A stretch of DNA of 49,025 nt from assembly GCA_938020445.1 (NCBI GenBank), contig CALIIC010000012.1, positions 1 through 49,025 of the forward strand, given 5' to 3'. A program made the position numbers and the translations under genes. The notes beneath the pieces are model-generated. The model was not told the DNA's origin, made no database searches, and was given only the letters and a program-made list of their open reading frames with translations. Numbering within the stretch: the stretch's first letter is position 1; every line of letters starts with the position of its first letter. Source of the stretch: an uncultured Flavobacteriaceae bacterium. Lineage in GTDB: Bacteria; Bacteroidota; Bacteroidia; Flavobacteriales; Flavobacteriaceae. This document shows, piece by piece, positions 10,136 through 47,168 of this stretch.

Positions 10136-10144
10136 TTCGATGAA
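10136..10144 (-). promoter_or_regulatory. TTCATCGAA motif upstream of the M4 protease
   Basis: On the - strand this reads TTCATCGAA, about 87 bp before the protease ATG. The same 9-mer recurs at 11208-11216, 47141-47149 and 47160-47168, and close relatives sit upstream of the five small-RNA promoters. A clean TAnnTTTG promoter was not found in the 10050-10233 intergene. Confidence 0.3.
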
Positions 10145-10233
10145 ATAAATATTTTTTCCTACAAATTATAAAAATTACTACTAGTCTATTTGTAGTTTCA
10201 ATACCTTGCCGGTTGACAAAAAAAGAAATAAAA

Positions 10234-16321: not shown

Positions 16322-16400
16322 TTTAAGTTCTCGAAAATTTTTAAAAATCGAAACTTTCAAGATCGCCGTTTGTCGACTATTTTGAACCGCTCATATTTTT

Positions 16401-16465
16401 CACAACAAAAAATAGGCAGTTCACAACAATAGTACCCTTGTATAGAAAAATCGGAAATATATTTA
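16401..16465 (+). promoter_or_regulatory. LytTR-like control region of small RNA A
   Basis: Direct repeats CACAACA at 16401-16407 and 16422-16428 (21 bp apart) are followed by the -7 box TATATTTA at 16458-16465, 36 bp from the second repeat. A TTTGTCG element sits 32 bp before the first repeat. The layout matches five other sites in the window. Confidence 0.8.
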
Positions 16466-16470
16466 CAGTG

Positions 16471-16598
16471 TTATTAAGCGTAACACCTTATCCCAAACAA
16501 ATGGCTTGAACTTAACCGAACAGCTTTTAAAAAATAAAATACGCATGTAACAAACCTACTTTAAAAAATCACCTCGGCTCCCCAGCCGGGGTTTTTTT
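16471..16598 (+). ncRNA. Small RNA A of a five-member LytTR-box RNA family
   Basis: A transcript of about 128 nt is inferred from the -7 box at 16458-16465 to the T-run at 16598; there is no plausible ORF. It carries CCTACTTT at 16555-16562, in a 22-bp block shared exactly with RNA B (core TGTAACAAACCTACTTTAAA). It ends in a hairpin with a CCCC loop. It lies between hflX and the 3' end of the PorP/SprF gene on the opposite strand, so it closes the adhesin operon whose promoter has the same control region. The exact start is estimated; function is unknown. Confidence 0.72.
16572..16598 (+). terminator. Intrinsic terminator of small RNA A
   Basis: An 8-bp stem (CCTCGGCT with AGCCGGGG, one G-T pair), loop CCCC and seven Ts. 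Read on the - strand it is also followed by Ts, so it may end the PorP/SprF operon as well. Confidence 0.85.
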
Positions 16599-16612
16599 AT
16601 GCCTTTTTCTTA

Positions 16613-17533
16613 CTAAAAAAATCGAGGTTCATTAAGTCGTACTTTTCCATTCATAAAATCATAGCGAAGCAAAATCTCATGCGTGCCAAAATTATAGCCT
16701 TTCAACTCTTTGTTGTTAAGGTTATAAGAATATCCTACATGCATCCTGGGTGTAACCTGCACCCCAAGTAATACAGCGATCGAATCACTTAGGCGATAGG
16801 CAAGCCCCACATTTAAAGTCTCCTTGAACAATGCACTTAATGCAATATCGGCGACCCAATCGTCGTTCGGTTCCCATTTCGCGAAAACCGAAGGTTTCAA
16901 TAGCACCTCTTTGTTCAGTTCAAACACTGTACCCCCTATCAAAAAGAAATGCAAGCGGGCAACATCTATCTCTTGTTCTAACGGATCATAATATTCCTGC
17001 GAAAAGAAATTAGGTACCGATAGGCCAATGTAGGTCTTTTCGGACCTGTAGTAGATGCCCGCACCAATACTCCCTAGAAATTTATTTTGAATGTTCGTCT
17101 GAAAGGCAATGTCTTCATTTTCCGATAGGCCTTTCGAAAAATCCACGTCAAATACGCGTGCGCCCGCCCTAAGACCAAAAGACAGTTTTTTGTTTTTATA
17201 ATGCAACGGAATCGTATGCGAAAAATTCGCGTCGAACACCAAATTGTTCACAGGTCCCAGCGCTTCATTAGAAATCCCGATACCCCACCCTACGGTACTT
17301 TCCGTTGGGCCATGAAGACTCACAAATTGTGTGGTCGGAGCACCATTTACACCGACCCATTGCGAACGGTGCATCCCAATTGCGGAAAGGTATTCTTTTG
17401 ACCCCGCATAGGCAGGGTTCACTGTCATAGTGTTGTAGGTATATTGGGCAAATTGCGGCTCTTGCTGTGCCTTAAGTGTATAGCTATTAGAAAGGACTAG
17501 CCCTAATAGTATCAGTAGAAAATTCTTTTTCAT
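16613..17533 (-). CDS. PorP/SprF-family type IX secretion membrane protein
   Basis: The 306-residue protein has a signal peptide (to about residue 22) and the family opening EPQFAQYTYNTMTVNPAYAGSKEYLSAIGMHRSQWVGVNGAPTT, then beta-barrel outer-membrane strands. Members pair with large substrates carrying type-B (gliding-motility) C-terminal domains and help export or anchor them at the surface. It lies 34 bp downstream of exactly such a substrate gene on the same strand. The pair is therefore an operon and a functional couple. Confidence 0.95.
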   Translation of the reverse strand: MKKNFLLILLGLVLSNSYTLKAQQEPQFAQYTYNTMTVNPAYAGSKEYLSAIGMHRSQWVGVNGAPTTQFVSLHGPTESTVGWGIGISNEALGPVNNLVFDANFSHTIPLHYKNKKLSFGLRAGARVFDVDFSKGLSENEDIAFQTNIQNKFLGSIGAGIYYRSEKTYIGLSVPNFFSQEYYDPLEQEIDVARLHFFLIGGTVFELNKEVLLKPSVFAKWEPNDDWVADIALSALFKETLNVGLAYRLSDSIAVLLGVQVTPRMHVGYSYNLNNKELKGYNFGTHEILLRYDFMNGKVRLNEPRFF

Positions 17534-17567
17534 AAGCTTTGGTTTGGCCTTTTTAGCGAATCTTTTT

Positions 17568-20500
17568 TTAATGCTTTAGATAAAGCCAATCTATGATGGG
17601 TTTGGAACCGTCTCCTAAATCGAGTGAGTAGTAATAGGTCCCCTCAGGAAGTCTTTCACCTGCATTTACCGTAGCATTTACTTCAGAAATTCCTTGCCAA
17701 TTGTTCTGGTAATCTTCTGCCTCGTACAATTTTTTTCCCCAGCGATCAAAAATGGTAAGCACACTATTGGGGTAATCCGCTAGGCAGTCGATTTTGAAGA
17801 AATCGTTGACACCATCACCATTTGGGGAAAACTTGTTGTACACCAGCAGACATCTGGGAACGAGGTTTGCCTCCGCATTATTATTGGTATCGTTCAAGTC
17901 AATTTGATCCAAATAGGCCAATTGTACCTGATTGAGATACGTCCCGGTCTTTAATACTTCAACCGTAAGTTCCAAGGCAGCACTGTTGCCAGCGTTTAAC
18001 AAAGGGATACTCCAAAAATTCGATACCGCATCATAACTGCCTTCTGTTGTTTGGGCATTTACAAAACGATATCCCGAAGGAAGTAGTTCCTCAATACCGA
18101 TGGTACTTGCATCGGTATCACCATTATTTGAAACGTTAATGGAAAACACTACCTCTTCCCCAATACCAGGGTTTGCATTGTTCACACTTTTTACAAGACT
18201 TAGATCGGTAGATGGAAAACGAACTTCAAAACTCGCTTGATCATCTTCATCTAACCCTTCCTTACTATTGTTGGGTGTACTATCGGGGTCTAAAAGATCA
18301 CTTGCAATGATCTCGGCCCTATTCAAATATTCGTTCTCTCCTCCTGTATAAGCTTGCACCACTGCGTCGAAACTTAACTCGATCGATTCGCCCGGTAATA
18401 CCGTTAGCCCATTCCAAACAACACGATCGCTTTCTGCAAGTATCCCTTGGTCACTAATATTGGTGATGGTACCAAAACCGGTTGGAAGCGTATCTTGCAC
18501 CCCAACTCCCGTAGCCGTTTCATCTCCTTCATTTGTGACGGTCAGTACAAATGTGATGGTATCATCTGCAACCGCTTCGGAACTACTTGCTGTTTTTTCC
18601 AAACTTAGATCTGCGGTCAATACAGCGGCGGTATCTTGGTCATCTTCCCCACTAAGATTATTTCCTGGTTCAGAGTCCCTATCTTCTTGGTCCGAAGCGA
18701 CTACTGCTGCGGTATTCGTATAGATTCCCCCTACGTTTACGATTGCTTCAAAAGTAAGTTCAACCGTGGCTCCGTTCGCAATTGAAAGGTTCGACCAAAC
18801 TATTGATTCGTCTTGGTTATGCATTCCATTTGCACCGATACTTTCTGGTAATACTAGGTACCCTGATGGAACCATATCAACAATTGAGACTCCGGTGGCA
18901 TCAGCAGAGCCGTTCGTCTCATTGTTATAAACAGAAATAGTAAACGTTACCGTATCCCCGGCCTGTACCTGCTCAGGGAATACTTCTTTCGTAAGCTCTA
19001 AATCGGCATTGCCCTCGAACACAATGGTTACCTGGTCTGAAATAGGATTACAGATTCCGTTTGAGATGGTCCATTCAAACACATACACACCCACTTCTGT
19101 TCCTAAAACCGATGTTTTGGGGTCATTTGCTACTATAAAATTGGCAGGGGTAGGTCCTGAAACTTGGGTCCAACTTCCTTCACCGACTGTAGCTGGATCA
19201 GCGTTCAACTGAACAATATCAAATTCCCCGAGCGTTTGATCGGCCCCGGCTTCCACCGAATTTGCTTGTTCAAAAACGATGATGGTCACAACATCTGAGA
19301 ACGAACAGCCTCCATTACTGCTCGTCCAGCTAAACTCATAAGTGCCAGGTTCTAGATTTGTGATTGGAGTCTTTGGGTCACCAACGGCCGCAATCGTTGC
19401 CAAATTACCAAGGGCCGTTATCCCGGGGCCCGAAATTTGTGCCCAAGTTCCCGTTCCTACCGACAAGGGCGATGCATCTAAAGTTGTTCGATCAAGGCTA
19501 CATAGTGCTTGATCGACCCCTGCATCTGGCATATCGGGTACTTCCCCGTTAAAGGTAATGGAAACCCGATCGGTAGAGTTTGCACAACTACCGGAGGTAA
19601 AAGCACCATTGGTAACGGTCCATTCAAAAACATAGGTTCCCAAAGCAGTGATATTCGATAAACTCGAGGTAGGTGAATTGGGGCTTTCAATTACGATCGC
19701 ACCGCCCGATGGATCTGTAATCAGGCTCCACTCACCAACGCCTAAAGGAGGGGCTACTGCATTTAAATTCACCAAGGCGGCGCAGGCGTTTGGTTGATCT
19801 GGCCCTGCAACGGCATCATATGGTTCAAAAACGGCTATTCGCACTACATCTGCCTCATCTGTACAATTTTGGGTAGAAAAATTCCATTCCAAAATATAGA
19901 TGCCGGGAGCCACAAGATTGTCTAGTGTTGTATTATGAAGGTAGGGGTCATTGATTGTAGCAATGCTCCCTTCGGGTTCACTGGCAAATCGCCAAAAAGC
20001 TTCATTTCCTGGGAGGGTCGTATCAAAGCCGGCAGCGATGGCGTTATTTCCATCCAAGGATATAGAAGTATTTCCGCCAGCATTGCAAATCACTTGATCG
20101 TCCCCTGCGTCGGGACTCGCAGAGGAGGAGTTGCTGGTAGTGATCACAACTTGATCGGCAGTTGATGGGCAAGTGGTATAATCCGTGGTAAACTCGAATA
20201 CATATTCGGAGCCTGTAGTTAGGGTCACATCTGCACGGGGACCATTTACAGGATTTTGAAGGATCATCGCGGGCGTTCCCGGATTTCCGTTCACTCCTGG
20301 ACCATCAATCTGAAGCCATGTTCCGGTAGATCCTTGAGTAGCTTGTAATACCGTGTTTTCAGATTCGCATAACTGTTGATCTGGCCCTGCATTGGCCGTC
20401 ACAAACACCTCAAACGTACTGTCTGAAAATGTAGGCACACAAAAATCGTCTCCGGTTATCGTCCATCGAAAGGTATAGGTTCCAGAAACCAGATTGGTCA

Positions 20501-23309
20501 CGGCGGACGTCGGGTCGTTCACATTTGCAATGGTTGGCGTATTCGGCGCACCACTAAGCAAGGTCCAAAAACCTGTTTCTATATTGGAGTCATACGCATT
20601 TCCATCCAATACAAGTGAATTGGCATTACAAATTCTTTGATCAGATCCAGTACTGGCAACCGTAGGGGGTACCCCTATATTCACTTGTACGGTATCCGAA
20701 GTTTCAGAGCAACTGCCGTTGCGCACGGTCCATTGATAAATATATTGACCGGAGTATGCAAATGTAAAGGTCGCTGTTGGACTGGTAGCATCATCGACGC
20801 TTACACCACCAAGACCTGAAACCAGTGTCCACTCTCCAGATCCACTAGACGGATCTGCCGCCATAGTCAACTGATTGGAGCAAATTGAACGATCAGGGCC
20901 TGCTTCTGCATCTACCCCGTCTACAACGGTAATCTCTACCTCATCAGAGCTGGTTTGACATTTGTCGAGGGTCCAAGTTAATATATAGGTCCCCGGAATC
21001 GAAATCGTCCCCGTCGTATTGAATTGGCCAGTATTCGCAAATGAAAAACCTACAGCAGGCGTTACCGACCAACTGCCTGTTTCATCTGCGGCCGGGGCAT
21101 TTGCAGAAAGGCTAACAGAAGTTGTTCCGGTTGGGAGGCATTGGTCAACACCTGCATTAGCAAAAGAAGGCCCTTCGGTAGAATTGGTACGAATGGTTAC
21201 TGTATCTTCTCTAGGGGCGGGGCAATTTAGATTGTTCGGATCGCGAATAGTCCATTTTAAAATATAGGTCTCACTTGGATCGTCAAAACCGGATACGATG
21301 GTATTTGGATCATTGACATCGGCAAAAGACAGACTTGTGCCAATCGGAGCACTGTTCACACTCCAGGTACCTTCTAGGGTAGACACCGATGGAGTATTTG
21401 CATTCAGTTGCACTTGTGAACCAAAACAAACCGTTTGATCTGCTCCGGCGTTGCTATCGACAATTGCTGAAGAGGATACGGTAATCTGTACATCTGACTG
21501 TGCAGGCGTACATTGTTCACCGCCCGATACACTGTACCTAAAAGTATAGGTTCCCGGTTGCAAGTCGCTGATTTGTGTTGTTCTGGCATAGGGGTCTACG
21601 ATATTGGCATTACTAGGGCCATTTATTTGCGACCACAAGGAAGTACCTGAGGAAATAATGTTTCCGGTCAAGGAGGTTTGGGTAATGTTACAGGGCAGAT
21701 TCTGTCCTGTTCCTGCGTTGGCAGGTGTCGGAATCGATGAGATACGCACATTCACCGAGGCTGTTGCCTCTTGACAACCCTGCTGTACCGACCCGTCGAC
21801 CTTTCGTCGAAAGAGGATGGTATACGTTCCTTCTACATCAAAATCGAGAGACAAGGGGCCGCTTGCGATGGTTTCAAAATCTTCAGAATCTACCATCCGT
21901 GAATCTGGTGGCCCACTAACAATACTATAGGATGTATTTGCTACCCCGGTAGTGGTAAATGGAATGGACACCTTGGTTTCACCACATAGCGGTACAACGT
22001 CGTTTCCACCATTTACTTCTATAGCGATAGGTTCGATAGAATAGGCAATAGTTACTGTACTAGAATCAGAACAGCCGGTAGTGTTATTAGCGATCGTATA
22101 GGAGAACACGTAGGTACTCTCACCATCAAGATCGGTTACCTGGGTTGCGCTGTTGGTTGGGTTGCCAATAGAAGCCGGACTGCCTGAGGTCGTAACCCCA
22201 GGGCCCTCAATTTGCGCCCACTGTACGGTTTCACCGGTATATATTGGAAGTGCACCTGACAAGGTAGTCGTCGTAAATGAACTATCGCAAAAGCGGAGAC
22301 TTCGATGTTCGGTAGTAGCACTTGTCACATCCTGTGAAGCTTCGGCAACTGTGATTGTCATCGTGTCGGAACCAGTAACACAGGGTCCGTCTACCGACCA
22401 AAGTAGCACATATGTCCCTTCGATTAAGTTAGACACCTTGCTCGTATTACTATTTTGATTTTCAAAAACAGGAGTACTGGGGCCGGTTACCAATGACCAT
22501 GTGCCTTGCTGCCCGTTAATATTGCTTCCTCCGAAGTACGCGTTGAGTCCCGTGCTCTGAGAAACCGAATAGCAATTGTCCAGACTCTGGTCCGGACCTG
22601 CATTTACAATCGCCCTACCGCCATAATTCGTAACAAGCATCTCCGAATAGGATTCACAATACTGACCTAATGCATCTGCAGGGCCGCGAATCGTCCATCG
22701 CAATGTACTTGTGCCGGCATATACCTCTAGCAAACTAATTGTTGTGGTAGGTGAATTGGGTTCATTGATGATTACTCCGGCATTGTTGTTGCCCTCGAAA
22801 GTCCAAGTACCCACTTCGCCAGGGTTTTCGGGAGGGTTTCCATAAACCTCAATTGTCCCCGATCGATCCGGACAGGAAAACAAATCGTCGCTGGTCTCGG
22901 CAATCGTAATAGGAGCAACTGTTATCTCAATATCTTGAAACTGGGTACTGCCATCGAAACAGTTGGCACTGAGCCTAAAAGTGTAACTATTGCCCCCTTG
23001 CATGCCAAAAATGGCACTGTTCAAATCGGAAGGATCCTGTAAGAGCACCGGGGGGCCAGCAACTTGTGACCAAAGAGGAGCACCCTGTAGCTGCCCTGTA
23101 ACTGAGCCGGACAAGGTATAGTTTAGGTTATTTTGACAGATTGTTTCTGGTATTCCCGCATTTACAGAGCAGTCTTGTGCTTGAGTTTTTTGTAAGAAAA
23201 AAAAATAAAATAGCATCCCGAAGAGCATGACGGAAACATACTTTGATTTTCCATTACATCCTATTTTTAAAGCATTTTCATTGCTTTTATATGTTTTATT
23301 TTGCCCCAT
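17568..23309 (-). CDS. Giant repeat adhesin with DUF11 domains and T9SS type-B (gliding motility) C-terminal domain
   Basis: The 1913-residue protein has a late N-terminal hydrophobic signal (VMLFGMLFYFFFLQ, ending KTQAQD). About thirteen tandem Ig/PKD-like repeats of roughly 90 residues follow, each opening with a version of NAGPDQxxC (for example NAGADQTVCFG, EAGPDRSICSN, DAGDDQVICNA). Three DUF11-like repeats come next (ADLELTKEV, ADLSLEKTA, TDLSLVKSV). The C-terminus is the gliding-motility type-B sorting domain with NKFSPNGDGVNDFFKI and IFDRWGKKLYEAEDYQNNWQG. It should be displayed on the cell surface by the type IX system, together with the PorP/SprF protein encoded next. The upstream control region at 23374-23437 predicts a leader of about 60 nt, consistent with the ATG at 23309. 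The ligand is unknown. Confidence 0.93.
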   Translation of the reverse strand: MGQNKTYKSNENALKIGCNGKSKYVSVMLFGMLFYFFFLQKTQAQDCSVNAGIPETICQNNLNYTLSGSVTGQLQGAPLWSQVAGPPVLLQDPSDLNSAIFGMQGGNSYTFRLSANCFDGSTQFQDIEITVAPITIAETSDDLFSCPDRSGTIEVYGNPPENPGEVGTWTFEGNNNAGVIINEPNSPTTTISLLEVYAGTSTLRWTIRGPADALGQYCESYSEMLVTNYGGRAIVNAGPDQSLDNCYSVSQSTGLNAYFGGSNINGQQGTWSLVTGPSTPVFENQNSNTSKVSNLIEGTYVLLWSVDGPCVTGSDTMTITVAEASQDVTSATTEHRSLRFCDSSFTTTTLSGALPIYTGETVQWAQIEGPGVTTSGSPASIGNPTNSATQVTDLDGESTYVFSYTIANNTTGCSDSSTVTIAYSIEPIAIEVNGGNDVVPLCGETKVSIPFTTTGVANTSYSIVSGPPDSRMVDSEDFETIASGPLSLDFDVEGTYTILFRRKVDGSVQQGCQEATASVNVRISSIPTPANAGTGQNLPCNITQTSLTGNIISSGTSLWSQINGPSNANIVDPYARTTQISDLQPGTYTFRYSVSGGEQCTPAQSDVQITVSSSAIVDSNAGADQTVCFGSQVQLNANTPSVSTLEGTWSVNSAPIGTSLSFADVNDPNTIVSGFDDPSETYILKWTIRDPNNLNCPAPREDTVTIRTNSTEGPSFANAGVDQCLPTGTTSVSLSANAPAADETGSWSVTPAVGFSFANTGQFNTTGTISIPGTYILTWTLDKCQTSSDEVEITVVDGVDAEAGPDRSICSNQLTMAADPSSGSGEWTLVSGLGGVSVDDATSPTATFTFAYSGQYIYQWTVRNGSCSETSDTVQVNIGVPPTVASTGSDQRICNANSLVLDGNAYDSNIETGFWTLLSGAPNTPTIANVNDPTSAVTNLVSGTYTFRWTITGDDFCVPTFSDSTFEVFVTANAGPDQQLCESENTVLQATQGSTGTWLQIDGPGVNGNPGTPAMILQNPVNGPRADVTLTTGSEYVFEFTTDYTTCPSTADQVVITTSNSSSASPDAGDDQVICNAGGNTSISLDGNNAIAAGFDTTLPGNEAFWRFASEPEGSIATINDPYLHNTTLDNLVAPGIYILEWNFSTQNCTDEADVVRIAVFEPYDAVAGPDQPNACAALVNLNAVAPPLGVGEWSLITDPSGGAIVIESPNSPTSSLSNITALGTYVFEWTVTNGAFTSGSCANSTDRVSITFNGEVPDMPDAGVDQALCSLDRTTLDASPLSVGTGTWAQISGPGITALGNLATIAAVGDPKTPITNLEPGTYEFSWTSSNGGCSFSDVVTIIVFEQANSVEAGADQTLGEFDIVQLNADPATVGEGSWTQVSGPTPANFIVANDPKTSVLGTEVGVYVFEWTISNGICNPISDQVTIVFEGNADLELTKEVFPEQVQAGDTVTFTISVYNNETNGSADATGVSIVDMVPSGYLVLPESIGANGMHNQDESIVWSNLSIANGATVELTFEAIVNVGGIYTNTAAVVASDQEDRDSEPGNNLSGEDDQDTAAVLTADLSLEKTASSSEAVADDTITFVLTVTNEGDETATGVGVQDTLPTGFGTITNISDQGILAESDRVVWNGLTVLPGESIELSFDAVVQAYTGGENEYLNRAEIIASDLLDPDSTPNNSKEGLDEDDQASFEVRFPSTDLSLVKSVNNANPGIGEEVVFSINVSNNGDTDASTIGIEELLPSGYRFVNAQTTEGSYDAVSNFWSIPLLNAGNSAALELTVEVLKTGTYLNQVQLAYLDQIDLNDTNNNAEANLVPRCLLVYNKFSPNGDGVNDFFKIDCLADYPNSVLTIFDRWGKKLYEAEDYQNNWQGISEVNATVNAGERLPEGTYYYSLDLGDGSKPIIDWLYLKH

Positions 23310-23373
23310 AAAAATCGGTGTGGTCGGTCGTGGTCATAAATCAATACCACTCAAATAAGTAGTATTTTTCCTT

Positions 23374-23437
23374 CAAATTTATATGAATAACCGAGTGAGG
23401 CCTTGTGTTTGTTGTGTATCATCAATAAATTGTTGTG
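23374..23437 (-). promoter_or_regulatory. LytTR-like control region and promoter of the adhesin-PorP/SprF operon
   Basis: Read on the - strand, CACAACA occurs at 23437-23431 and 23416-23410 (21 bp apart). A perfect -7 box TAAATTTG occupies 23381-23374, 35 bp from the second repeat. The spacing is identical to that of small-RNA promoters B to E. The predicted start is near 23368, about 60 nt before the ATG. The TTCATCG element seen 32 bp before the small-RNA repeats is absent here. Confidence 0.8.
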
Positions 23438-23638
23438 TGCTATCGGGAAATAGATGTAAGGCACACAGGGAATGCCAATTATCAGTTCCTTTTAGGGTAA
23501 TGACCAAGGCTATGAAAGTAAAAAGAGCCTGAAACGTATCACCTGTGCATCTTTTCTGTCTTTGTCCGCTTTCTCGGAGTCACTTTAAACAGTTCATTCT
23601 TGGGATAGACGTTGCCGGAAAAATAAAGAAACCGTTGC
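23438..23638. other. Intergenic stretch with no recognised gene
   Basis: Between the adhesin control region and that of small RNA B there are about 200 bp with no credible ORF, hairpin terminator or CACAACA pair. It may hold a degenerate remnant or simply spacer DNA. Confidence 0.4.
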
Positions 23639-23672
23639 ATTTCATCGATCAATTTACACCCTTGCTATTTTT

Positions 23673-23736
23673 CACCACAGAAAGCGTTGGGTTCACAACA
23701 ATAATTTAGATATGGGCCACTACGATCCTATATTTG
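23673..23736 (+). promoter_or_regulatory. LytTR-like control region of small RNA B
   Basis: CACCACA at 23673-23679 and CACAACA at 23694-23700 are 21 bp apart. The perfect -7 box TATATTTG is at 23729-23736, 35 bp after the second repeat. TTCATCG at 23641-23647 lies 32 bp before the first repeat. The 20-mer CACAACAATAATTTAGATAT is shared exactly with RNA D. Confidence 0.82.
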
Positions 23737-23741
23737 ACCTG

Positions 23742-23892
23742 TACTAATAAAATGCAAAGAGCCGCTATTTTGCTCCTGTATTTAATCAAAAAGAAAAACA
23801 CCAATTAACCTACTTTATATAACCATTTAAAAGTATTACATGTAACAAACCTACTTTAAAGGAAAAGCCCCGATCCCCATCGGGGTTTTTTT
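23742..23892 (+). ncRNA. Small RNA B of the LytTR-box RNA family
   Basis: A transcript of about 151 nt is inferred, with CCTACTTT twice (23809-23816 and 23850-23857). The second copy lies in the block shared with RNA A. The terminator hairpin has a CCCC loop. It diverges from the adhesin operon and is followed within 100 bp by the control region of RNA C. No credible ORF is present. The start is estimated from the -7 box. Confidence 0.75.
23868..23892 (+). terminator. Intrinsic terminator of small RNA B
   Basis: A 7-bp stem CCCCGAT/ATCGGGG with loop CCCC, followed by seven Ts. Confidence 0.88.
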
Positions 23893-23984
23893 ATACCCAT
23901 ACCCTTCCCATCTTCTTTAAAAAAGTTTTAATCCCTAGCATCAAAAAGGTACTTTATCGAAGAAAAAGAACCGTTCATACGGCA

Positions 23985-24048
23985 CACAACACCCTACGAT
24001 TATTTGACAACAATAATTGCAGTGTTCTTGAATACCCTCCTATATTTA
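23985..24048 (+). promoter_or_regulatory. LytTR-like control region of small RNA C
   Basis: CACAACA at 23985-23991 and GACAACA at 24006-24012 are 21 bp apart. The -7 box TATATTTA is at 24041-24048, 35 bp from the second repeat. TTTATCG lies 32 bp before the first repeat. Confidence 0.8.
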
Positions 24049-24053
24049 CAGTG

Positions 24054-24207
24054 TAATTAAGTGATAGTGTCGACCCCAAATCACACTTGAACCAACCTAC
24101 GTTGAGCTTTGATTTCCCCAAATCGGTGCTAGACCTACAACGCTTGGAACCAAATCTTTAGATACCTACTTGCAAAAAACCCTGACGTATATGTCAGGGT
24201 TTTTTTT
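24054..24207 (+). ncRNA. Small RNA C of the LytTR-box RNA family
   Basis: A transcript of about 154 nt is inferred with three CCTAC motifs (24096-24100, 24134-24138 and CCTACTT at 24165-24171). An internal hairpin GATTT-CCCC-AAATC lies at 24111-24124. Its 5' end resembles RNAs A and D (GTAATTAAG-like). It ends at a strong terminator that touches the stop codon of the convergent exported-protein gene. No credible ORF. Confidence 0.75.
24180..24207 (+). terminator. Intrinsic terminator of small RNA C
   Basis: A 7-bp stem CCCTGAC/GTCAGGG, extended by A-T pairs, with a GTATAT loop and eight Ts. The A-run on its left makes it bidirectional, so it probably also ends the operon on the - strand at 24206. 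Confidence 0.9.
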
Positions 24208-24817: not shown

Positions 24818-24829
24818 GATTGTTGTTTT

Positions 24830-25294
24830 TTAATTGTTGATTTCCTTTAAAAATGCTTTTCCCAATTTATTGATAACGGCAAAACCTGTCGTATCTATTT
24901 GTTTTCTATACACGGTGATTTTCAGTTTTCCTTCTTCTACCTTTACCTCGTGCATGGGCTTCCCTTCCTTTGTGGTCTTTTTCCAACTCATTTTTTCAAA
25001 ACCTGTAGTAGTATCACCATCGTCTAACATTGTTGAAACTACTTTTTGAACCGCTTCTTTTTGGCTCTTTTCAAAAAATAGCGCCACCTTGTACACTTTA
25101 TTCGTGATTTTAAGGCTATAGTCATCTTCAAACTCGTATTCGAAACGAGAACCTTTTGTATCGGCTTCAAAACCATAAACGTTCACCGACTCGGCGCTTA
25201 GATGGAACTGATGCTCTTTTTCTTCTTCATCTTGGGCAAAAACACCCACTGTGGCTACCATAACGAACATTATTGTAATTGCTATATTTTTCAT
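24830..25294 (-). CDS. Small exported protein of unknown function, paralogue of the next gene
   Basis: The 154-residue protein has a signal peptide (MKNIAITIMFVMVATVGVFAQ) and an acidic start (DEEEKEHQF). The segment KVALFFEKSQKEAVQKVVSTML ... MSWKKTTKEGKPMHEVKVEEGKLKITVYRKQ matches the layout of the gene at 24206-24817 (a Val-Lys-rich strand, Trp-Lys, Gly, EVK-L-Gly-LKI). It lies 4 bp after the serine hydrolase gene and 12 bp before its paralogue. No function is assigned. Confidence 0.75.
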   Translation of the reverse strand: MKNIAITIMFVMVATVGVFAQDEEEKEHQFHLSAESVNVYGFEADTKGSRFEYEFEDDYSLKITNKVYKVALFFEKSQKEAVQKVVSTMLDDGDTTTGFEKMSWKKTTKEGKPMHEVKVEEGKLKITVYRKQIDTTGFAVINKLGKAFLKEINN

Positions 25295-25298
25295 TTTT

Positions 25299-26519
25299 CT
25301 AATTTTTATTGTTACTAATTCCTTTCTGATAGGTGCGTATTACATTCCAGCAAGCTTGTACTTGTTTTGCGGCCACGGGATTGTCAATGACATTGGTATT
25401 GGTAAAAAACACTGCGCCCATTTTTATATCCTTGTAGTAATACATAAGGGTTAATATACCGGGGTCACCTCCATTATGCCCTAGTACCGTATCCCTATTG
25501 TACTCCCAGAAATACCCATAGTTGTCGGTCTCCTCTTCGTCTCCGTATTGTGCAGGGCTTACTTGGGCCTGAATCATTTCCCTACAAAGTTCACTTCCTA
25601 ATAGTGTGGAATCCCCTTCATACGAGCGAATGATTGCCTGTAGGTACTTCGTTAGGCTTTCAATACTTGTTCGCAAACCACCATCTGGATAGGTATTCAA
25701 AGAATAGGCCGGCAATGCTTGCCCGTTATTGGCATATACTTGTGCATGTTTTTTGCGATCTATGGCATCATAGGACCAGCCCGTATCCTTCATGCCAATG
25801 GCATCAAAAATATACTGTTGGGTGAATTCAGGAAACGATTGGCCAGTAGCAACCTCTATACAGTAAGCCGCAAGTGCCGAAGCGACGTTCGAGTATTCAT
25901 ACTTTTCGCCCGGCGCCGATTTTAAAAAGTTCTTTTTATGGAACAAGCTTCCTTTGGGTGTTAGATACTCTTCCAGATAAGCAGCCAGAGGCATCGCTTT
26001 ATTTCGTTTAATTTGCTCTAAATACTTCGACATCTCCTTTCCATAAATTTCAGGGGTTATCGAATCAGGATTTTCAAGTACATAGCTCTGATCGTACCCC
26101 TTTTCAAAATCAAATATACCAGAGGTGTGGGTTGCCAAGTGCTTAACGGTAATCTCACTTCCCGGAAATTTAGGATGCCATACTTTAAAGGGTAAAATAT
26201 CGTTTACGGGGGTATTCATTGTGAACTTTCCCAATGCTACCGCTTTCATAAGGGACACCCCAATAAAAGTTTTCGAAATGGAACCGATATTTTGAATTGT
26301 ATTGGTTTCATATGCCTTCTTAGCTTTTATATCGGCATACCCGTATCCTTTTTGAAAGTAAAGCGAATCAGCTGAAAAAACCGACACCCCAAAACCGCTC
26401 AGGCCCGTCTGCTTGGAAATGCTATCCAGTTCGTATCGCAGCCGTTCCATAGGGGCCTGCGCTTCTAAGTTGACCGCCATTCCCATGACCATCAAAAAAG
26501 GTAGTATAAATTGTCGCAT
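25299..26519 (-). CDS. Exported serine hydrolase (beta-lactamase/class C PBP family)
   Basis: The 406-residue protein has a signal peptide ending near VNLEAQAP and a full PF00144-type domain: SxxK is S-I-S-K in NIGSISKTFIGVSLMKAV, the second motif is YSN in YEYSNVASALAAYC, and the third is HNG in VLGHNGGDPG. It likely works in the periplasm or at the surface as a D-peptidase or esterase. It lies 46 bp downstream of the response-regulator gene in the kinase operon, which suggests a role in an envelope response. Confidence 0.9.
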   Translation of the reverse strand: MRQFILPFLMVMGMAVNLEAQAPMERLRYELDSISKQTGLSGFGVSVFSADSLYFQKGYGYADIKAKKAYETNTIQNIGSISKTFIGVSLMKAVALGKFTMNTPVNDILPFKVWHPKFPGSEITVKHLATHTSGIFDFEKGYDQSYVLENPDSITPEIYGKEMSKYLEQIKRNKAMPLAAYLEEYLTPKGSLFHKKNFLKSAPGEKYEYSNVASALAAYCIEVATGQSFPEFTQQYIFDAIGMKDTGWSYDAIDRKKHAQVYANNGQALPAYSLNTYPDGGLRTSIESLTKYLQAIIRSYEGDSTLLGSELCREMIQAQVSPAQYGDEEETDNYGYFWEYNRDTVLGHNGGDPGILTLMYYYKDIKMGAVFFTNTNVIDNPVAAKQVQACWNVIRTYQKGISNNKN

Positions 26520-26565
26520 ATTGTTTGTTTTTATTTTAATTGATTGATGAAATAAACTCCGTTTA

Positions 26566-27246
26566 TTACGCTACCTTAAAGGTGAGTCCTACACCGCGAA
26601 CACTTTCGATAGCAATTGATGAGTCTTGCTTAAAGTACTTTCGCAGTCTGCTAATAAATACATCCATACTTCTTCCTGAGAAAAAGTCGTCGTTGCCCCA
26701 AACGTCTTTGAGGAGGTCGTCTCTTTTTACCATGGTGTTTTTATGCTCATACAAATACTGTATGAGTACGGTTTCTTTTTCGGTAAGCCGTTGTTCGGTT
26801 TCTCGAAATAGTAATTTGTGATTGATCGAGTCGAATTCATACTCCCCGATACGATACAGCTCTTCTTTTTTTGGTTGAATGCGCTGTGTTCTTTTAAGAA
26901 TATTTCGCAGCCTTAGCACTAAGATATCTGCCTCAAAAGGTTTTACGATATAATCGTCGGCACCTAACTTGAGTCCTTGAATGCGATCTTCCTTAAGCTT
27001 TTTAGCAGTCAAGAATACAAAGGGTACTCCTGGATCTATATCGACCACTTTTTCGGCCAAACTAAAGCCGTCGAGCTTCGGCATCATTACATCGAAAACA
27101 CAGATATCAAAATTGTTTTTAGTAAACAGTTCCAATGCTTCCATTCCATCTTTGGCCCAGGTAACCTGATATTCATGTATTTCTAAATATTGCTTAAGAA
27201 TACTTCCAAAATCAAAATCATCTTCTGCCAATAGTACATTTGTCAT
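26566..27246 (-). CDS. OmpR/PhoB-family response regulator
   Basis: The 226-residue protein has a receiver domain (about 1-118) with acidic pocket E8-D9-D10, phosphorylation site D52 in DICVFDVMMPKLDGF and the switch lysine in FLTAKK. A winged-helix DNA-binding domain follows (about 130-226) with DDLLKDVWGNDDFFSGRSMDVFISRLRKYF and VRGVGLTFKV. It is 6 bp downstream of its kinase. OmpR-type proteins bind 11-bp-period direct repeats, and such repeats occur at 28713-28841 before both the kinase gene and the divergent DUF5916 gene. It is not of the LytTR class expected for the small-RNA promoters. Confidence 0.95.
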   Translation of the reverse strand: MTNVLLAEDDFDFGSILKQYLEIHEYQVTWAKDGMEALELFTKNNFDICVFDVMMPKLDGFSLAEKVVDIDPGVPFVFLTAKKLKEDRIQGLKLGADDYIVKPFEADILVLRLRNILKRTQRIQPKKEELYRIGEYEFDSINHKLLFRETEQRLTEKETVLIQYLYEHKNTMVKRDDLLKDVWGNDDFFSGRSMDVFISRLRKYFKQDSSIAIESVRGVGLTFKVA

Positions 27247-27252
27247 GCTTTC

Positions 27253-28638
27253 TTAATTTACTGGTATGGTTATACTAAATTTGCTTCCCTGGCCCAACTC
27301 GCTTTCAATTTCAATGGTTCCCTCGTGTGCGTCAACAACTTGTTTGGTATAGTATAGCCCGAGACCCAAACCCTTTACATTGTGCACATTTCCAGAAGCA
27401 ACGCGATAAAATTTATCGAAAATAGTAGGTAACTCTTTTTGTGAGATTCCGATTCCATTATCGGCAATTACGATCTCATAATGATTGTTCTTTAGCCGAG
27501 TCGAGATGGTTAAGGTCACTTTCTCTTTCCCATACTTTACGGCATTTTCAAGAATATTGAACAAGGCGGTCGTAAACATAAAGGTATCGATACGCAACAT
27601 GACCTCCGTTGTTTCAATAGCCCGCTCGATGGTCAAGTCTTTACTTTGAACCGACAGTGCAAAATCATCTATCAAGTTATTGAGGTAGGTATCATCTAAA
27701 ACTTGTTCTTTGTGAAGTACCAAATCCTCAGAACCCAAACTATTTGTCATTACTTGATCGATCAATTTTTGCAGTCGATCATTCTGACGATCTAAAATCC
27801 CCAGCGTGTTTTCAAAGGCTTTTGGGGAAGCTAAGATTTCTTTCTTTTTTAGGCTTTTGGATGCAATGGTCAAGGTGGCCAACGGAGTTTTGAGCTCATG
27901 GGTAATGTTATTTATAAAATCCGTTTTTACATCGGCCACCTTTTTTTGTTTGATCAAGTTTTTAATCGAATAATAAAAAAGCCCGACCACGAAAATTAAT
28001 AAGAGGATTGATCCTGCCAAGAGCGCCGCCATTCTTCCTAAAACGATGCGTTTCCATTCAGAGATGTTCATTCGATCTTTGGTGATTACTCTAAACTCCA
28101 GTGTTTTCTCTATCCCATCTTCCTGTTGGGTATAGTCGGATTGCCAAAGGGCCTGACTCACATTGTATCCTTCGCTTTCCTCAAAATCCTCGCCGAACTT
28201 TAAAATGCGATCGTGATTGCCAAAAGGGAATACGGTATCATTGCTAATCGTATCAAAGACTATGACGGAGTGTACATTCTTTTTAAACTTGATATCAAAA
28301 CCTAAATCGGTCTTTTTCAGTTCATCATCATACAGTTTATTATAGGTACTGTTCAAAGAATCTGTTTGCTTTTTCAACGCATCTAAAAAGGTTTCTTTCG
28401 AAAGGTCTTTAAATCGATATTGCCATAACAGCTGCATAAAATGTTGATCCCAAAGGTCGTCGATCTCCACGATGGCTTCCGTTTCATCATCAATCCTGCC
28501 AATGGCCGTTCGCGTCTCATTTAAAAAGGCATCTTTCTTAAGTTCATACGTATTGTAGATCAGATAGGTCTGTATGCCTACCAAGGCGAACAGTGTTGCG
28601 ATCGCTGTTACTATAAGTATGTTTATTTTTTGTTGCAT
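27253..28638 (-). CDS. Membrane sensor histidine kinase
   Basis: I start the 461-residue protein at the ATG at 28638 (MQQKINILIVTAIATLFALV), because this gives a proper first membrane helix; an in-frame ATG at 28752 adds 38 unlikely residues. TM1 spans about 6-28, a periplasmic sensor domain about 30-200, and TM2 about 203-225. The H-box is FINNITHELKTP with H247, followed by N-box NILENAVKYGKE, G-box DNGIGIS, F-box IFDKFYR and GLGLGLYYTKQVV. It is the first gene of the operon with the response regulator, a serine hydrolase and two exported proteins. The signal is unknown. Confidence 0.93.
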   Translation of the reverse strand: MQQKINILIVTAIATLFALVGIQTYLIYNTYELKKDAFLNETRTAIGRIDDETEAIVEIDDLWDQHFMQLLWQYRFKDLSKETFLDALKKQTDSLNSTYNKLYDDELKKTDLGFDIKFKKNVHSVIVFDTISNDTVFPFGNHDRILKFGEDFEESEGYNVSQALWQSDYTQQEDGIEKTLEFRVITKDRMNISEWKRIVLGRMAALLAGSILLLIFVVGLFYYSIKNLIKQKKVADVKTDFINNITHELKTPLATLTIASKSLKKKEILASPKAFENTLGILDRQNDRLQKLIDQVMTNSLGSEDLVLHKEQVLDDTYLNNLIDDFALSVQSKDLTIERAIETTEVMLRIDTFMFTTALFNILENAVKYGKEKVTLTISTRLKNNHYEIVIADNGIGISQKELPTIFDKFYRVASGNVHNVKGLGLGLYYTKQVVDAHEGTIEIESELGQGSKFSITIPVN

Positions 28639-28712
28639 AATGGTTTGGTTGTTATTCTTCAACACCTCAAAAGTATCATAAAGCTTACTCCTCGCCCAAC
28701 AATTGGAGACCG

Positions 28713-28734
28713 TTAACCCACCGTTAACGTTAAT
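28713..28734 (-). promoter_or_regulatory. Two 11-bp-period TTAAC repeats upstream of the kinase operon
   Basis: On the + strand TTAACC starts at 28713 and TTAACG at 28724, 11 bp apart, about 75 bp before the kinase ATG at 28638. The geometry fits an OmpR-type operator and suggests autoregulation. Confidence 0.5.
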
Positions 28735-28808
28735 AAGGCTCGGAAGCCCCATTAAATAAGGGTTTTACTTGCTGTGTTAATGCCTTTCATCCGTTGCCCA
28801 AAACCACA

Positions 28809-28841
28809 TTAACCTGTCTTTAACCCCTGCTTAACCTGCTT
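28809..28841 (+). promoter_or_regulatory. Three tandem 11-bp TTAACC repeats before the DUF5916 gene
   Basis: TTAACC starts at 28809, 28820 and 28831, exactly 11 bp apart. A -7-like GATATTTG at 28858-28865 lies 17 bp after the array. This is the typical layout of an activating OmpR/PhoB-family site. The adjacent response regulator is the obvious candidate binder. Confidence 0.65.
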
Positions 28842-28913
28842 ATCCGCCAGGTCGCCAGATATTTGAATTGTTCAAAACAAGGCTTGTCTACTAACAACCA
28901 TAAACCCATACAG

Positions 28914-31358
28914 ATGAAAACAATATCAAAAACCAACCTGTTACTTGCCGTTCTTCTAATTCTAAGTAATCTATGCCAAAACATACAGGCACAGGATAGC
29001 CTGCAACACATTACTATTCATCATAAGACCGGGGTTATTAAAATAGACGGCATGCTGAATGAAGCCGACTGGAAATCTCAATTGCAGACTTATACCTTCA
29101 TACAATCAGCGCCGAATAATGGCAAACTGGCCTCTCAAAAAACCGAAGTCGCCGTACTGTATGATGATACCTACCTGTACGTTTCGGCCAAGATGCATGT
29201 GGCCGACCGATCTGAAATTAATTCGATCTTAACTGCAAGGGACGATTTGGGAAACAGTGATTTTTTCGGATTAGGCCTCGACCCGTTCGGACTTTCACAG
29301 GATGGCTATGAATTTTTGGTGACCAGCGCAGGGGTACAGTTCGATCAAAAAATTTCGAATGATGACAACTATCCCAATTTTAATGTAGTATGGGAAAGCA
29401 AGGTGGTCATTGAAGATGATCAATGGCTGGTAGAAATGAAAATACCCTTTAATAGTATTCGCTTCCCTAAAGAGGAATTAAACAATTTGCGTATCAACTT
29501 TCAACGATTTTCCGCCTTCAATAATGAAGATACCTATTGGAATCATATTGATATTGAACAAGACGGTTTTTTAAATCAATTTGGCCGCGGAACGGGCATG
29601 TCAAAAATACACCCCCCGCTAAACCTTTCGTTTATTCCCTTTACTTCTGTTTTTACAGAAAAGAACCCTTTCTCCGACGGGCGCACTACCCAATTGAATG
29701 TAGGCATGGATATGAAATATGTATATGATAACTCCTATACTTTGGATGTCTCCCTGATTCCCGACTTTAGCCAAGCTCCTTCAGATAACCAAGTATTAAA
29801 TCTCTCTCCTTTTGAAATTCAATTTAATGAGAATCGGCAGTTCTTCGTTGAAGGTACCGAGCTTTTCGACAAGGGCGGTTATTTTTATTCAAGAAGAATT
29901 GGTGGCAGGCCCTTAAACAGTGGAGCGGTAGAAGGCCAATTGGAAGCAAACGAGGAACTAATTGAAAACCCCATCTCATCGAACATCCTTAATCTTATCA
30001 AGTTTACCGGAAAATCGGAAAACGGCTTCTCGGTCGGGGTACTAAACGGGATTACGAACAACACTTATGCTACCGTGGAAAATACCGAGACTGGTGAACT
30101 TCGGGAAGTACAAACCAACCCCTTATCGAACTACAATGCCGTTGTATTGGACCAAACCTTAAAAAACAATTCGTCTATTACCTTTTTAAACAATTCGGTA
30201 ATGCGAGAGGGCGATGATTATGATGCCAACCTGAGCGCCTTGCTCTTCACCGGTTTTAATAAAAAGCGAAGCTACTCCCTTAAATTAAGAGCTGCCCTAT
30301 CACAACAATATAGTTCGGAAGAGGAAGATAACTTTGGGCAAAATTACTACGCCGCCCTAGAAAAAATAAGTGGTGCTTGGAACCTTGGAATACGAACCGA
30401 ATTGCATGACGACACCTTCGATTCGAATGATTTTGGCTTTCTACCAAGAAACAACCGATTGAATTTCACCAACTATGTGGTCTATAAAAAATTCAATCCG
30501 GAAAAGACTTTTAATTACTATCAATTAAGGGGGCTTTTTCTAAAACAGTACTACTATTCATTGATGGAAGAGGAAGTAAGTTTGTATGATATCGAATTCT
30601 TCGGGCAACTGAAAAACAATATGAATCTCATAGCAGGGGTACAATATCGTGAACCCAGCACCAGCTTTTTTGAGGCCCGCACAACTGACCAGCCTTTTAA
30701 TCGCCCAGCGTTCTTTCAAACATTCTTGGAGGTACAGACAAATTCGAACAAACCCATTTACTTTGCATCTTATTTAGAAACCCGCAATTACGTAAACTCG
30801 GATACCTTTACCTATAGTATTGATTGGGGATACGGTTTAACGGCGAACATAGGGCAACATTTAAGCATAAAGCTAGATCAAAGTCTAGAGTACATGGATG
30901 CAAATCACGGCTACATGACCCGTTTGGACGACCAAGTACTCATCGGAAAACGCAGCATACAGGAATGGAGCAATCAATTGCAAATTTCATATGTATTCAA
31001 CCCCAAGTTAAGCACCAACCTTCGCCTACGACACTACTGGAGCCAAGTGAACTATATGGACCAATTTTCCTTGACCTCTTCTGGAAAAATACAGGAGAAT
31101 GGTTTGGCCGTAACCATCAATGATTTTGATACCAACTATAATAATTTTCTCGGGGAACTTTCTGCTAAATGGCAGTTTGCCCCAGCCAGTGAACTACGTT
31201 TCTTCTGGAGGTACGGTACCGAGAGTTTTAATGACGACTTGAATTACAATTATGGCGACAACTTAGGGAATAGCTTGCGCGCAGACAATAGTAGCACCAT
31301 TTCCTTAAAAATGACCTACTTCTTAGATTTTAATAGGTTGCGTTCCAAAAAAGGATAA
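28914..31358 (+). CDS. CBM9-like/DUF5916 outer-membrane protein
   Basis: The 814-residue protein starts at the ATG at 28914, which places a good signal peptide first (MKTISKTNLLLAVLLILSNL, ending IQAQD); an in-frame ATG at 28863 adds 17 residues upstream. Residues about 25-220 resemble a family 9 carbohydrate-binding domain (IKIDGMLNEADWK, DDTYLYVSAKM). The rest is the DUF5916 beta-barrel region, including NENRQFFVEGTELFDKGGYFYSRRIGG and many alternating strands. These proteins sit in the outer membrane; their substrate is unknown. It is divergent from the kinase operon and separated by OmpR-type repeats, so it is probably a main target of that system. Confidence 0.9.
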   Translation: MKTISKTNLLLAVLLILSNLCQNIQAQDSLQHITIHHKTGVIKIDGMLNEADWKSQLQTYTFIQSAPNNGKLASQKTEVAVLYDDTYLYVSAKMHVADRSEINSILTARDDLGNSDFFGLGLDPFGLSQDGYEFLVTSAGVQFDQKISNDDNYPNFNVVWESKVVIEDDQWLVEMKIPFNSIRFPKEELNNLRINFQRFSAFNNEDTYWNHIDIEQDGFLNQFGRGTGMSKIHPPLNLSFIPFTSVFTEKNPFSDGRTTQLNVGMDMKYVYDNSYTLDVSLIPDFSQAPSDNQVLNLSPFEIQFNENRQFFVEGTELFDKGGYFYSRRIGGRPLNSGAVEGQLEANEELIENPISSNILNLIKFTGKSENGFSVGVLNGITNNTYATVENTETGELREVQTNPLSNYNAVVLDQTLKNNSSITFLNNSVMREGDDYDANLSALLFTGFNKKRSYSLKLRAALSQQYSSEEEDNFGQNYYAALEKISGAWNLGIRTELHDDTFDSNDFGFLPRNNRLNFTNYVVYKKFNPEKTFNYYQLRGLFLKQYYYSLMEEEVSLYDIEFFGQLKNNMNLIAGVQYREPSTSFFEARTTDQPFNRPAFFQTFLEVQTNSNKPIYFASYLETRNYVNSDTFTYSIDWGYGLTANIGQHLSIKLDQSLEYMDANHGYMTRLDDQVLIGKRSIQEWSNQLQISYVFNPKLSTNLRLRHYWSQVNYMDQFSLTSSGKIQENGLAVTINDFDTNYNNFLGELSAKWQFAPASELRFFWRYGTESFNDDLNYNYGDNLGNSLRADNSSTISLKMTYFLDFNRLRSKKG

Positions 31359-31425
31359 AACAGCAGGGACCTTCAAATACACTATACATGCAGTTCATCG
31401 GACATACAAAACCTTTGGTAGGATA

Positions 31426-31489
31426 CACAACACTTTCTACTTGGCACACAACAATAATTTAGATATCGTCAAAAGTGGTGGTAAGTTTA
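31426..31489 (+). promoter_or_regulatory. LytTR-like control region of small RNA D
   Basis: CACAACA at 31426-31432 and 31447-31453 are 21 bp apart. The -7 box TAAGTTTA is at 31482-31489, 35 bp after the second repeat. TTCATCG at 31394-31400 lies 32 bp before the first repeat. Confidence 0.8.
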
Positions 31490-31494
31490 CACTG

Positions 31495-31604
31495 TAATAA
31501 AGCGAAAGATTAGATTCCCAAATCGAAACTTAGCCCAAATAAAAGACCAAACCAAATTAGACCAAACCTACTTAGTAAAAGCCCCGGGTAACACCGGGGC
31601 TTTT
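31495..31604 (+). ncRNA. Small RNA D of the LytTR-box RNA family
   Basis: This is the shortest member, about 110 nt. It has CCTACTT at 31567-31573, a small hairpin GATT-CCCA-AATC at 31513-31524 and repeated ACCAAA/CCAAAC segments that look unstructured. Its 5' end (GTAATAAAGCGAAA) resembles RNA A. No credible ORF. It follows the DUF5916 gene but has its own promoter. Confidence 0.74.
31577..31604 (+). terminator. Intrinsic terminator of small RNA D
   Basis: An 11-bp stem AAAAGCCCCGG/CCGGGGCTTTT with a 6-nt loop. The T-run is part of the stem, so it works in both directions. Confidence 0.85.
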
Positions 31605-31677
31605 AAATGTACTTTTCGCCATACGCCCCTCTTATCTAGTGTATTTCATCGATGAAACAACGCATTTTAACTTGTTT

Positions 31678-31741
31678 CACAACATCTTTGGTTGTATTCA
31701 CAACAAAAATTTAGTCTCCCTTCCATTTGCTCCTACATTCG
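31678..31741 (+). promoter_or_regulatory. LytTR-like control region of small RNA E
   Basis: CACAACA at 31678-31684 and 31699-31705 are 21 bp apart. The -7 box TACATTCG, one mismatch from consensus, is at 31734-31741, 35 bp from the second repeat. TTCATCG starts at 31645, 33 bp before the first repeat. Confidence 0.78.
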
Positions 31742-31746
31742 TCATG

Positions 31747-31899
31747 TATTTAAGATTTAGTGTTTGTAATACCTTTTTAGGTATTTGGATTTGCCCAAAT
31801 CTGCATAAGACTTTATTAGTTCGATTTTAATTGACTGTGCAACCAAATGTAACGAATCCTACTTAACAAAAAAACGCCCCGAGACTGTCGGGGCGTTTT
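31747..31899 (+). ncRNA. Small RNA E of the LytTR-box RNA family
   Basis: A transcript of about 153 nt with CCTACTT at 31858-31864, a 7-bp hairpin AATACCT-TTTT-AGGTATT (31768-31785), and GATTT-GCCC-AAATC (31788-31801). The 3' block ATGTAACGAATCCTACTTAA is a diverged version of the A/B block. It is the least conserved of the five and lies in tandem behind RNA D. Confidence 0.72.
31871..31899 (+). terminator. Bidirectional intrinsic terminator of small RNA E and the DUF3078 gene
   Basis: A perfect 12-bp stem AAAACGCCCCGA/TCGGGGCGTTTT with a 5-nt loop. A-runs and T-runs on the two sides serve both strands; the convergent DUF3078 gene ends at 31937. Confidence 0.9.
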
Positions 31900-47140: not shown

Positions 47141-47168
47141 TTCGATGAACGACACCTTTTTCGATGAA
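47141..47168 (-). promoter_or_regulatory. Two TTCATCGAA motifs 19 bp apart between the zinc-ribbon gene and brnQ
   Basis: On the - strand TTCATCGAA occurs at 47149-47141 and 47168-47160. The same 9-mer is found in two other intergenes (10136-10144, 11208-11216). The rest of 47011-47289 shows no gene. Confidence 0.35.

Follow-up and report, generated by a model that had tools for sequence, protein, structure and literature searches.

A candidate LytTR-linked family of terminated small RNA genes in Flavobacteriaceae and a predicted start-codon target of a sister RNA

The small RNA (sRNA) circuits of Flavobacteriaceae, a major marine family, are little studied. In a 49,025-nt contig of an uncultured marine Flavobacteriaceae bacterium (CALIIC010000012.1; hereafter the window, contig C12 of a 4.66-Mb, 207-contig genome that is 82% complete), five short intergenic units on the plus strand carry a pair of direct repeats upstream of a promoter-like box and end in a terminator. 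What drives these units, and what would their RNAs do? The most likely answer, which we hold with fair confidence, is that a LytTR two-component system drives a set of sibling sRNAs, in which an sRNA with a strongly conserved core would act on the mRNA of a CAP-domain lipoprotein and the window units would be its siblings. Each component of this reading can be tested directly: a candidate regulator with its operator, two RNA families unmatched in Rfam, and a conserved mRNA predicted as target.

Five units on one plan

Positions of the units, all on the plus strand, are as follows.

Unit 1, 16399-16598, plus strand: boxes 16399-16407 and 16420-16428; -7 box 16458-16465; predicted transcript ~16472-16598; CCTACTT 16555-16561; terminator ~16572-16598
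Unit 2, 23671-23892, plus strand: boxes 23671-23679 (CACCACA) and 23692-23700; -7 box 23729-23736; predicted transcript ~23743-23892; CCTACTT 23809-23815 and 23850-23856; terminator ~23866-23892
Unit 3, 23983-24207, plus strand: boxes 23983-23991 and 24004-24012 (GACAACA); -7 box 24041-24048; predicted transcript ~24055-24207 with a CCCC-loop hairpin; CCTACTT 24165-24171; terminator 24180-24207
Unit 4, 31424-31604, plus strand: boxes 31424-31432 and 31445-31453; -7 box 31482-31489; predicted transcript ~31496-31604; CCTACTT 31567-31573; terminator 31580-31604 (by eye; the script did not score it)
Unit 5, 31676-31899, plus strand: boxes 31676-31684 and 31697-31705; -7 box 31734-31741; predicted transcript ~31748-31899; CCTACTT 31858-31864; terminator 31874-31899

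Each unit comprises two TTCACAACA-type boxes, a TAnnTT(T/C) box, a short non-coding body and a terminator, and these positions confirm the common plan described in an earlier sequence-only reading of the window. The start-to-start spacing of the repeats is 21 bp in all five units; counted the same way, the TAnnTT[T/C] box follows the second repeat at 35 bp (36 in unit 1, at 16401), which leaves 28-29 bp after the second box, exactly as that reading had it. Its description of the control regions as identical went too far: one first repeat reads CACCACA, one second repeat reads GACAACA, and the -7 boxes vary across the five units (TATATTTA, TATATTTG, TATATTTA, TAAGTTTA and TACATTCG). The terminators consist of a G+C hairpin plus a T-run in every unit, and the longest open reading frame (ORF) spans 11-24 codons in the four units scored by the script, in agreement with the units having been called non-coding and terminated. 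All five bodies also share CCTACTT shortly 5' of the terminator. Judged by their sequence, the units thus have their own promoter, a terminator and no long ORF, as expected of non-coding sRNA genes, and we regard them as candidate sRNA genes whose transcription is predicted. Identity with an Rfam family was rejected, as had been anticipated: over the window there were 0 matches at the gathering score and, in E-value mode, only matches below the cut-offs, and 11 further loci likewise gave 0 matches at the gathering score, with all E-value matches below the cut-offs.

Searching TTCACAACA-N12-TTCACAACA with up to three mismatches returned six sites in the window, the five units and one minus-strand site, compared with 0.06 expected from dinucleotide shuffles (0 of 100 shuffles reached six); because the box consensus was derived from the same five units, this enrichment is partly circular, and independent support comes from other genomes, where the layout recurs. 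The layout was also found genome-wide, at 37 sites with up to three mismatches, but the reversed pattern gave 17, and a fair share of the weak matches is therefore due to chance. A sequence model built from the five promoters, R1, placed 14 matches in the genome at E<=0.01, which include the five units, a DUF6747 gene, a 35-aa gene, three sRNA genes of another body (on contigs C75, C156 and C23, the last adjoining a LytTR gene) and others; weaker scores were obtained for the C23 kinase gene (E 0.034) and a PorP/SprF-like gene (E 0.054).

Recurrence was evaluated in 60 relatives, one tool-chosen sample used for the promoter, regulator and core searches alike (up to 72 candidates scored per genome for the promoter and up to 45 for the regulator). 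At E<=0.01, R1 gave 7-16 matches per genome in 13 of the 60, whereas among the other 47 it gave 1-2 matches in nine (best E 3.8e-5) and none in 38. The units of the relatives sit in similar clusters, with syntenic counterparts in several genomes, so the layout is indeed present in related genomes. Besides such units, the promoter class also precedes protein genes (adhesin, PorP/SprF-like, DUF6747, a 33-35-aa protein, a kinase) and a second, more conserved sRNA.

The LytTR regulator, the core sRNA and its predicted target

On contig C23 of the same genome, beside boxes, a gene for a 250-aa receiver-LytTR protein is followed by one for a 654-aa TPR-HisKA_2 histidine kinase. Orthologues of this regulator at E<=1e-60 occur in the same 13 of 60 genomes as the promoter and in 0 of the 47 others, a coincidence that accords with the LytTR-like control proposed by the sequence-only reading; the LytTR-type arrangement, a promoter preceded by a pair of direct repeats at a distance of about 21 bp, is likewise present. 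We further inspected 80 named kinase loci (Maribacter, Ulvibacterium, Eudoraea, Muriicola, Zeaxanthinibacter, Flagellimonas/Allomuricauda, Robiginitalea and others), several of which appear to belong to genomes of the 13. In 79 of these loci the 900 bp preceding the kinase contain boxes with up to four mismatches, the single locus without them having just 202 bp of upstream sequence, and the regulator is present in 76 with 86-99% identity, three of the four misses having short upstream sequence. Since boxes stand in the operon of the regulator and the two co-occur in 13 of 60 genomes, this LytTR regulator is proposed for the units, which would depend on it through predicted binding to the boxes.

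The second sRNA behind this promoter class is characterized by the core 5'-UUUCAUUUUCAUAUAGUGUUCUC-3', and the copy beside the regulator carries TTTCATTTTCATATAGTGTTCTC followed by a terminator. The core sRNA adjoins the regulator in 11 of the 13 regulator-positive genomes, and 61 of the 80 named loci have the exact core ahead of the kinase. Boxes with up to four mismatches were found 60-170 nt upstream of 79 of 84 exact core copies, compared with 21 of 840 random positions. The copies were gathered by exact match, which makes the 23-mer invariant among them by construction; the free evidence is therefore the seven bases 3' of it, 93-100% conserved in 81 copies, together with the search of the 60 genomes for the 22-mer core, which yielded 45 perfect copies in the 13 regulator-positive genomes (2-4 each), 0 in the other 47, and no one-mismatch variant in any of the 60. 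Two-sided changes occur in six of 14 pairs of the terminator stem (30-sequence alignment), an ATG-started frame runs through the core in only three of 83 copies, and a comparison of the core sRNA with Rfam was negative.

The 60-genome search, run with the core complement GAGAACACTATATGAAAATGAA and up to three mismatches, also gave 16 imperfect matches, where the reversed control had 4 in total. Of these 16, eight fall in regulator-positive genomes: six cover the start codon of a single gene, the CAP gene, one is on the start of an ABC-transporter-like gene and one lies elsewhere. Two of the eight in regulator-negative genomes were inspected, and neither is at the start of a long ORF. The CAP gene encodes a protein of ~160 aa (PF00188), called a lipoprotein by eye. 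A protein search covering 24 of the 60 genomes, 13 with the regulator and 11 without, found its orthologue in all 13 regulator-positive genomes, and in each of these the duplex of core and CAP start has an energy of -23.9 to -31.9 kcal/mol, whereas nine CAP homologues in seven of the 11 regulator-negative genomes, plus two second copies, gave -5.5 to -12.1 (for several distant homologues, here and in the named genomes below, the start codon was placed where the match begins and could be a few codons out). The lowest pairing energy with the core in 376 other start regions, an uncurated set of ATG-started ORFs of at least 150 aa from the window and 40 of the 80 named loci, was -20.3. A complementary CAP start was also found in 14 of 26 further named genomes, picked by us from the 80 loci and outside the recognized members of the 13; in genomes of the Maribacter, Ulvibacterium, Eudoraea, Muriicola and Robiginitalea type the start duplex was -23.1 or lower in 14 of 14 (one CAP start region among the 26 genomes, L308, was read from an internal ATG).

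From this complementarity we infer occlusion of the CAP start codon, by which the core sRNA probably blocks CAP translation. If this is true, the 22-nt core, with 45 identical copies and no one-mismatch match in the 60 genomes, would be an sRNA seed under unusual constraint, kept complementary to a single start codon. The ABC-transporter-like start (G000:C48:38205-38226, minus strand, two mismatches, gene assigned by eye) was rejected as a core target, since the match is confined to the own genome. In several Flagellimonas-type leaders, the part farther from the start contains (G)AGAACAC, the complement of GUGUUCU in the core (by eye, uncounted).

In the model that we favor, the TPR-HisKA_2 kinase and the LytTR regulator of C23 would control the five sibling sRNA genes, the phosphorylated 250-aa regulator binding the 21-bp-spaced boxes and activating a Bacteroidota-type promoter. 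Boxes before the kinase gene and before the core sRNA, of which one copy usually stands beside the regulator gene, would place these in the same regulon. The core sRNA would pair over the AUG of the CAP-domain lipoprotein mRNA and block its translation, and, with lower confidence, the window RNAs would act post-transcriptionally by competing for whatever binds leader elements of the CCC-loop/CCUACUU kind.

RNA bodies, rival explanations and related systems

The 22-nt core is missing from the five window RNAs. By script, 45 terminated units were identified in the window together with 15 regions of relatives; six with an ORF of at least 30 codons were dropped to leave 39, three of which are leaders of protein genes, and counts were therefore repeated on 36 sRNA-like units (five further box places without a scored terminator, window unit 4 among them, are uncounted). 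Without their terminators, the 39 bodies contain 41% A, 21% C and 12% G. CCUACUU occurs in 35 of the 36 sRNA-like units, and the stems differ between units yet often close on CCC-containing loops: 39 CCC-loop hairpins were found in the 36 units, compared with a shuffled mean of 15.8 and a maximum of 26 in 100 rounds (40 against 16.3 over all 39 units). The bodies, which had been described as diverging, thus do so in their stems but are related by CCTACTT and the CCC loops. In the CAP leaders of the 13 genomes, CCTACTT is present in 12, the remaining one having CCTGCTT, and there are 23 CCC-loop hairpins against 9.2 in shuffled sequences (maximum 16). Units of a CCCAAA type lie between the core sRNA and the kinase, with 60 box-linked matches in 58 of the 80 named loci, a count from a loose pattern that takes in some kinase leaders. 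CAP leaders without CCUACUU were seen in Flagellimonas.

Leader elements shared without the start codon suggest decoys for a common binder, and the window RNAs may, on this slender basis, compete for a binder of the CAP-leader elements. Decoy RNAs of the CsrB/RsmZ type carry a repeated short motif (GGA) in hairpin loops, shared with an mRNA leader; the window RNAs would be alike if the decoy reading is right, with CCC loops and CCUACUU instead of GGA and a putative binder. A circuit with two opposed arms on the CAP mRNA, where the core sRNA shuts it and the window leader-mimics titrate the putative binder, appears rather doubtful to us.

Several observations weigh against the proposed circuit. 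The core is not beside the regulator in two of the 13 genomes, and in 19 of the 80 named loci the exact core is missing ahead of the kinase (upstream sequence is short in three, three others, L171, L186 and L187, have diverged copies, and the rest have no close copy); of the 84 core-sRNA copies, only 32 show a strict TAnnTT[T/C] box where one is expected. In 10 Flagellimonas/Allomuricauda and two Zeaxanthinibacter genomes the CAP start duplex is -9.7 to -20.4 kcal/mol in 10 and -24.0 in two, and all 12 nevertheless have the core, while three genomes with a complementary CAP start have no exact core in the fetched locus. By reading, neither TTCACAACA nor its complement TGTTGTGAA fits the published LytTR half-site [TA][AC][CA]GTTN[AG][TG], although sites differ between LytTR proteins. 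Regarding the window RNAs, no antisense target emerged when the 3' segment conserved in units 1 and 2, the one segment searched, was compared with the 13 genomes (38 hits, the sRNA genes themselves among them, compared with 44 for the control); the 80 named loci show no enrichment of CCTACTT in front of genes, on which ground it was rejected as a general leader element; and no unit pairs notably with the CAP leader or the core sRNA. Given these three negatives, what remains to speak for the decoy idea is the shared motifs.

The window RNAs could instead be ordinary trans-acting antisense sRNAs that use CCUACUU and the C-rich loops as seeds for AAGUAGG/GGGG sites, an explanation with a real chance that we place somewhat short of even. 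C-rich loops of Gram-positive sRNAs act as pairing seeds, the bodies are G-poor with CCUACUU adjoining the terminator, and the C23 kinase leader of the own genome (L021) contains TTTAAAGTAGG, an 11-nt perfect complement of units 1 and 2. This complement is unconserved in the named loci, where AAGTAGG occurs upstream of the kinase in only one of 80, so that the kinase leader was rejected as a conserved sRNA target; the longer complement was unenriched in the 13 genomes, as the 38 against 44 above indicates, and duplex scans against 14 start regions gave a best z of -3.0, nothing beyond the yield of many comparisons. Control of the boxes by another regulator is, on the other hand, unlikely. With 39 LytTR matches in the genome, another paralogue could also bind the boxes; moreover, an OmpR-type receiver protein and histidine kinase (26566-28752, minus strand) lie in the window between units 3 and 4, and both facts count against the regulator favored here. 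Nevertheless, 79 of 80 loci have boxes in the operon of the C23-type LytTR regulator, 13 of 60 genomes carry regulator and boxes together, and the 21-bp repeat is LytTR-like, OmpR-type repeats usually being ~11 bp apart.

Small proteins or leader peptides as products of the units seem very improbable: the same promoter class does precede very short genes (33-35-aa, 32-aa and DUF6747), but the longest ORF is below 30 codons in 39 of the 45 script-found units, no shared reading frame was seen (no formal coding test was run), and the frame through the core in just three of 83 core-sRNA copies also speaks against coding. Scarcely any credence is left for chance or an assembly artefact, in which promoter-like AT-rich spacers would meet the terminators of neighbours. 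Units 1, 3 and 5 are convergent with minus-strand genes, which their terminators could also serve; this explanation is already contradicted by the six window sites against 0.06 expected, partly circular as that figure is, and by the syntenic counterparts in several genomes.

The LytTR-driven circuit proposed here is, by analogy, closest in logic to CiaR and the csRNAs of streptococci, not in sequence. In the passages of PMC3091779 drawn on here, the response regulator CiaR drives several similar intergenic terminated csRNAs through a promoter direct repeat, and the csRNAs have unpaired regions complementary to start codons. A two-component regulator, several sibling terminated sRNAs and a promoter direct repeat are common to both, whereas the CiaR repeat is TTTAAG-N5-TTTAAG and that of the Flavobacteriaceae is TTCACAACA-N12-TTCACAACA with a LytTR regulator; the best matches to the CiaR box in the five promoter regions have 3-5 mismatches of 12. 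A csRNA-like stretch against a start codon is found here in the sister core sRNA and was not seen in the five window units.

In the same phylum, FopS/GibS of Bacteroides thetaiotaomicron are multicopy sRNAs with a single-stranded 5' part and a Rho-independent terminator, and FopS binds near the start codons of surface-protein mRNAs, SusC mRNAs being named as targets (PMC11697453, in the sections consulted). They resemble the present RNAs as a multicopy family with start-codon-proximal pairing, and differ in being described, in those sections, without a tie to a LytTR-system promoter and in targeting SusC rather than a CAP lipoprotein mRNA. No Rfam family (FopS included, if it is in Rfam) reached its score; otherwise the distinction from FopS follows the published description in those sections. 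Because regulator, operator and predicted target all differ, the system is a member of neither the csRNA nor the FopS family. The Rfp RNAs of Flavobacterium psychrophilum are likewise flavobacterial intergenic sRNAs; Rfp18 is tied to secreted-protease expression and has a strong secondary structure with a pairing region in its third stem-loop (PMC9723704). LytTR is absent from the main text of that paper as far as covered here, and the Rfp RNAs are set apart by this description, not by sequence. In the open-licence literature searched, neither these RNAs nor any LytTR-driven sRNA family of Bacteroidota turned up.

Other genes and sites near the promoter class

The sixth box site in the window and the genes next to it are as follows.

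Control region, 23374-23439, minus strand: boxes 23439-23410 with TATAAATTTG downstream; upstream of the adhesin gene; weak R1 score (E 0.44)
Adhesin-like protein, 17568-23309, minus strand: 1913 aa, DUF11/PKD-type domains and a CHU_C type IX secretion signal
PorP/SprF protein, 16613-17533, minus strand: gene downstream of the adhesin gene

The adhesin gene is a possible member of the regulon. Elsewhere in the genome, boxes at G000:C164:5987 and 9728 (L052) stand in front of two genes, one PorP/SprF-like (by eye) with an adhesin-like gene in its vicinity, the other of DUF6747. A conserved 33-35-aa protein follows the same promoter, and is itself followed by a terminator, in L026 (1501, minus strand), L145, L146 and L151, with the pattern M[ED]A..N...E.IQVY[KR]N[DE]F.SGI.ML..KLFML by eye; the protein of this type in the own genome had no Pfam match.

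Five of the seven CACCTACTTA sites of the own genome lie 9-27 nt before a start codon, and the reversed control has two sites. Two of the five genes behind them encode a LytTR regulator and a CAP protein; the other three look by eye like a sigma-factor gene and two glycosyltransferase genes.

CACCTACTTA sites before starts: G000:C118:1797, C60:18123, C80:8035, C127:16893, C198:8461

A further motif, TTTCATCGA, occurs six times in the window against 0.72 expected, two of the occurrences overlapping as one palindrome.

TTTCATCGA sites: 749-757 minus, 10137-10145 minus, 23640-23648 plus, 31644-31652 plus, 31649-31657 minus, 47161-47169 minus

It is also found upstream of units and of CAP genes in relatives, and it looks like the operator of another regulator.

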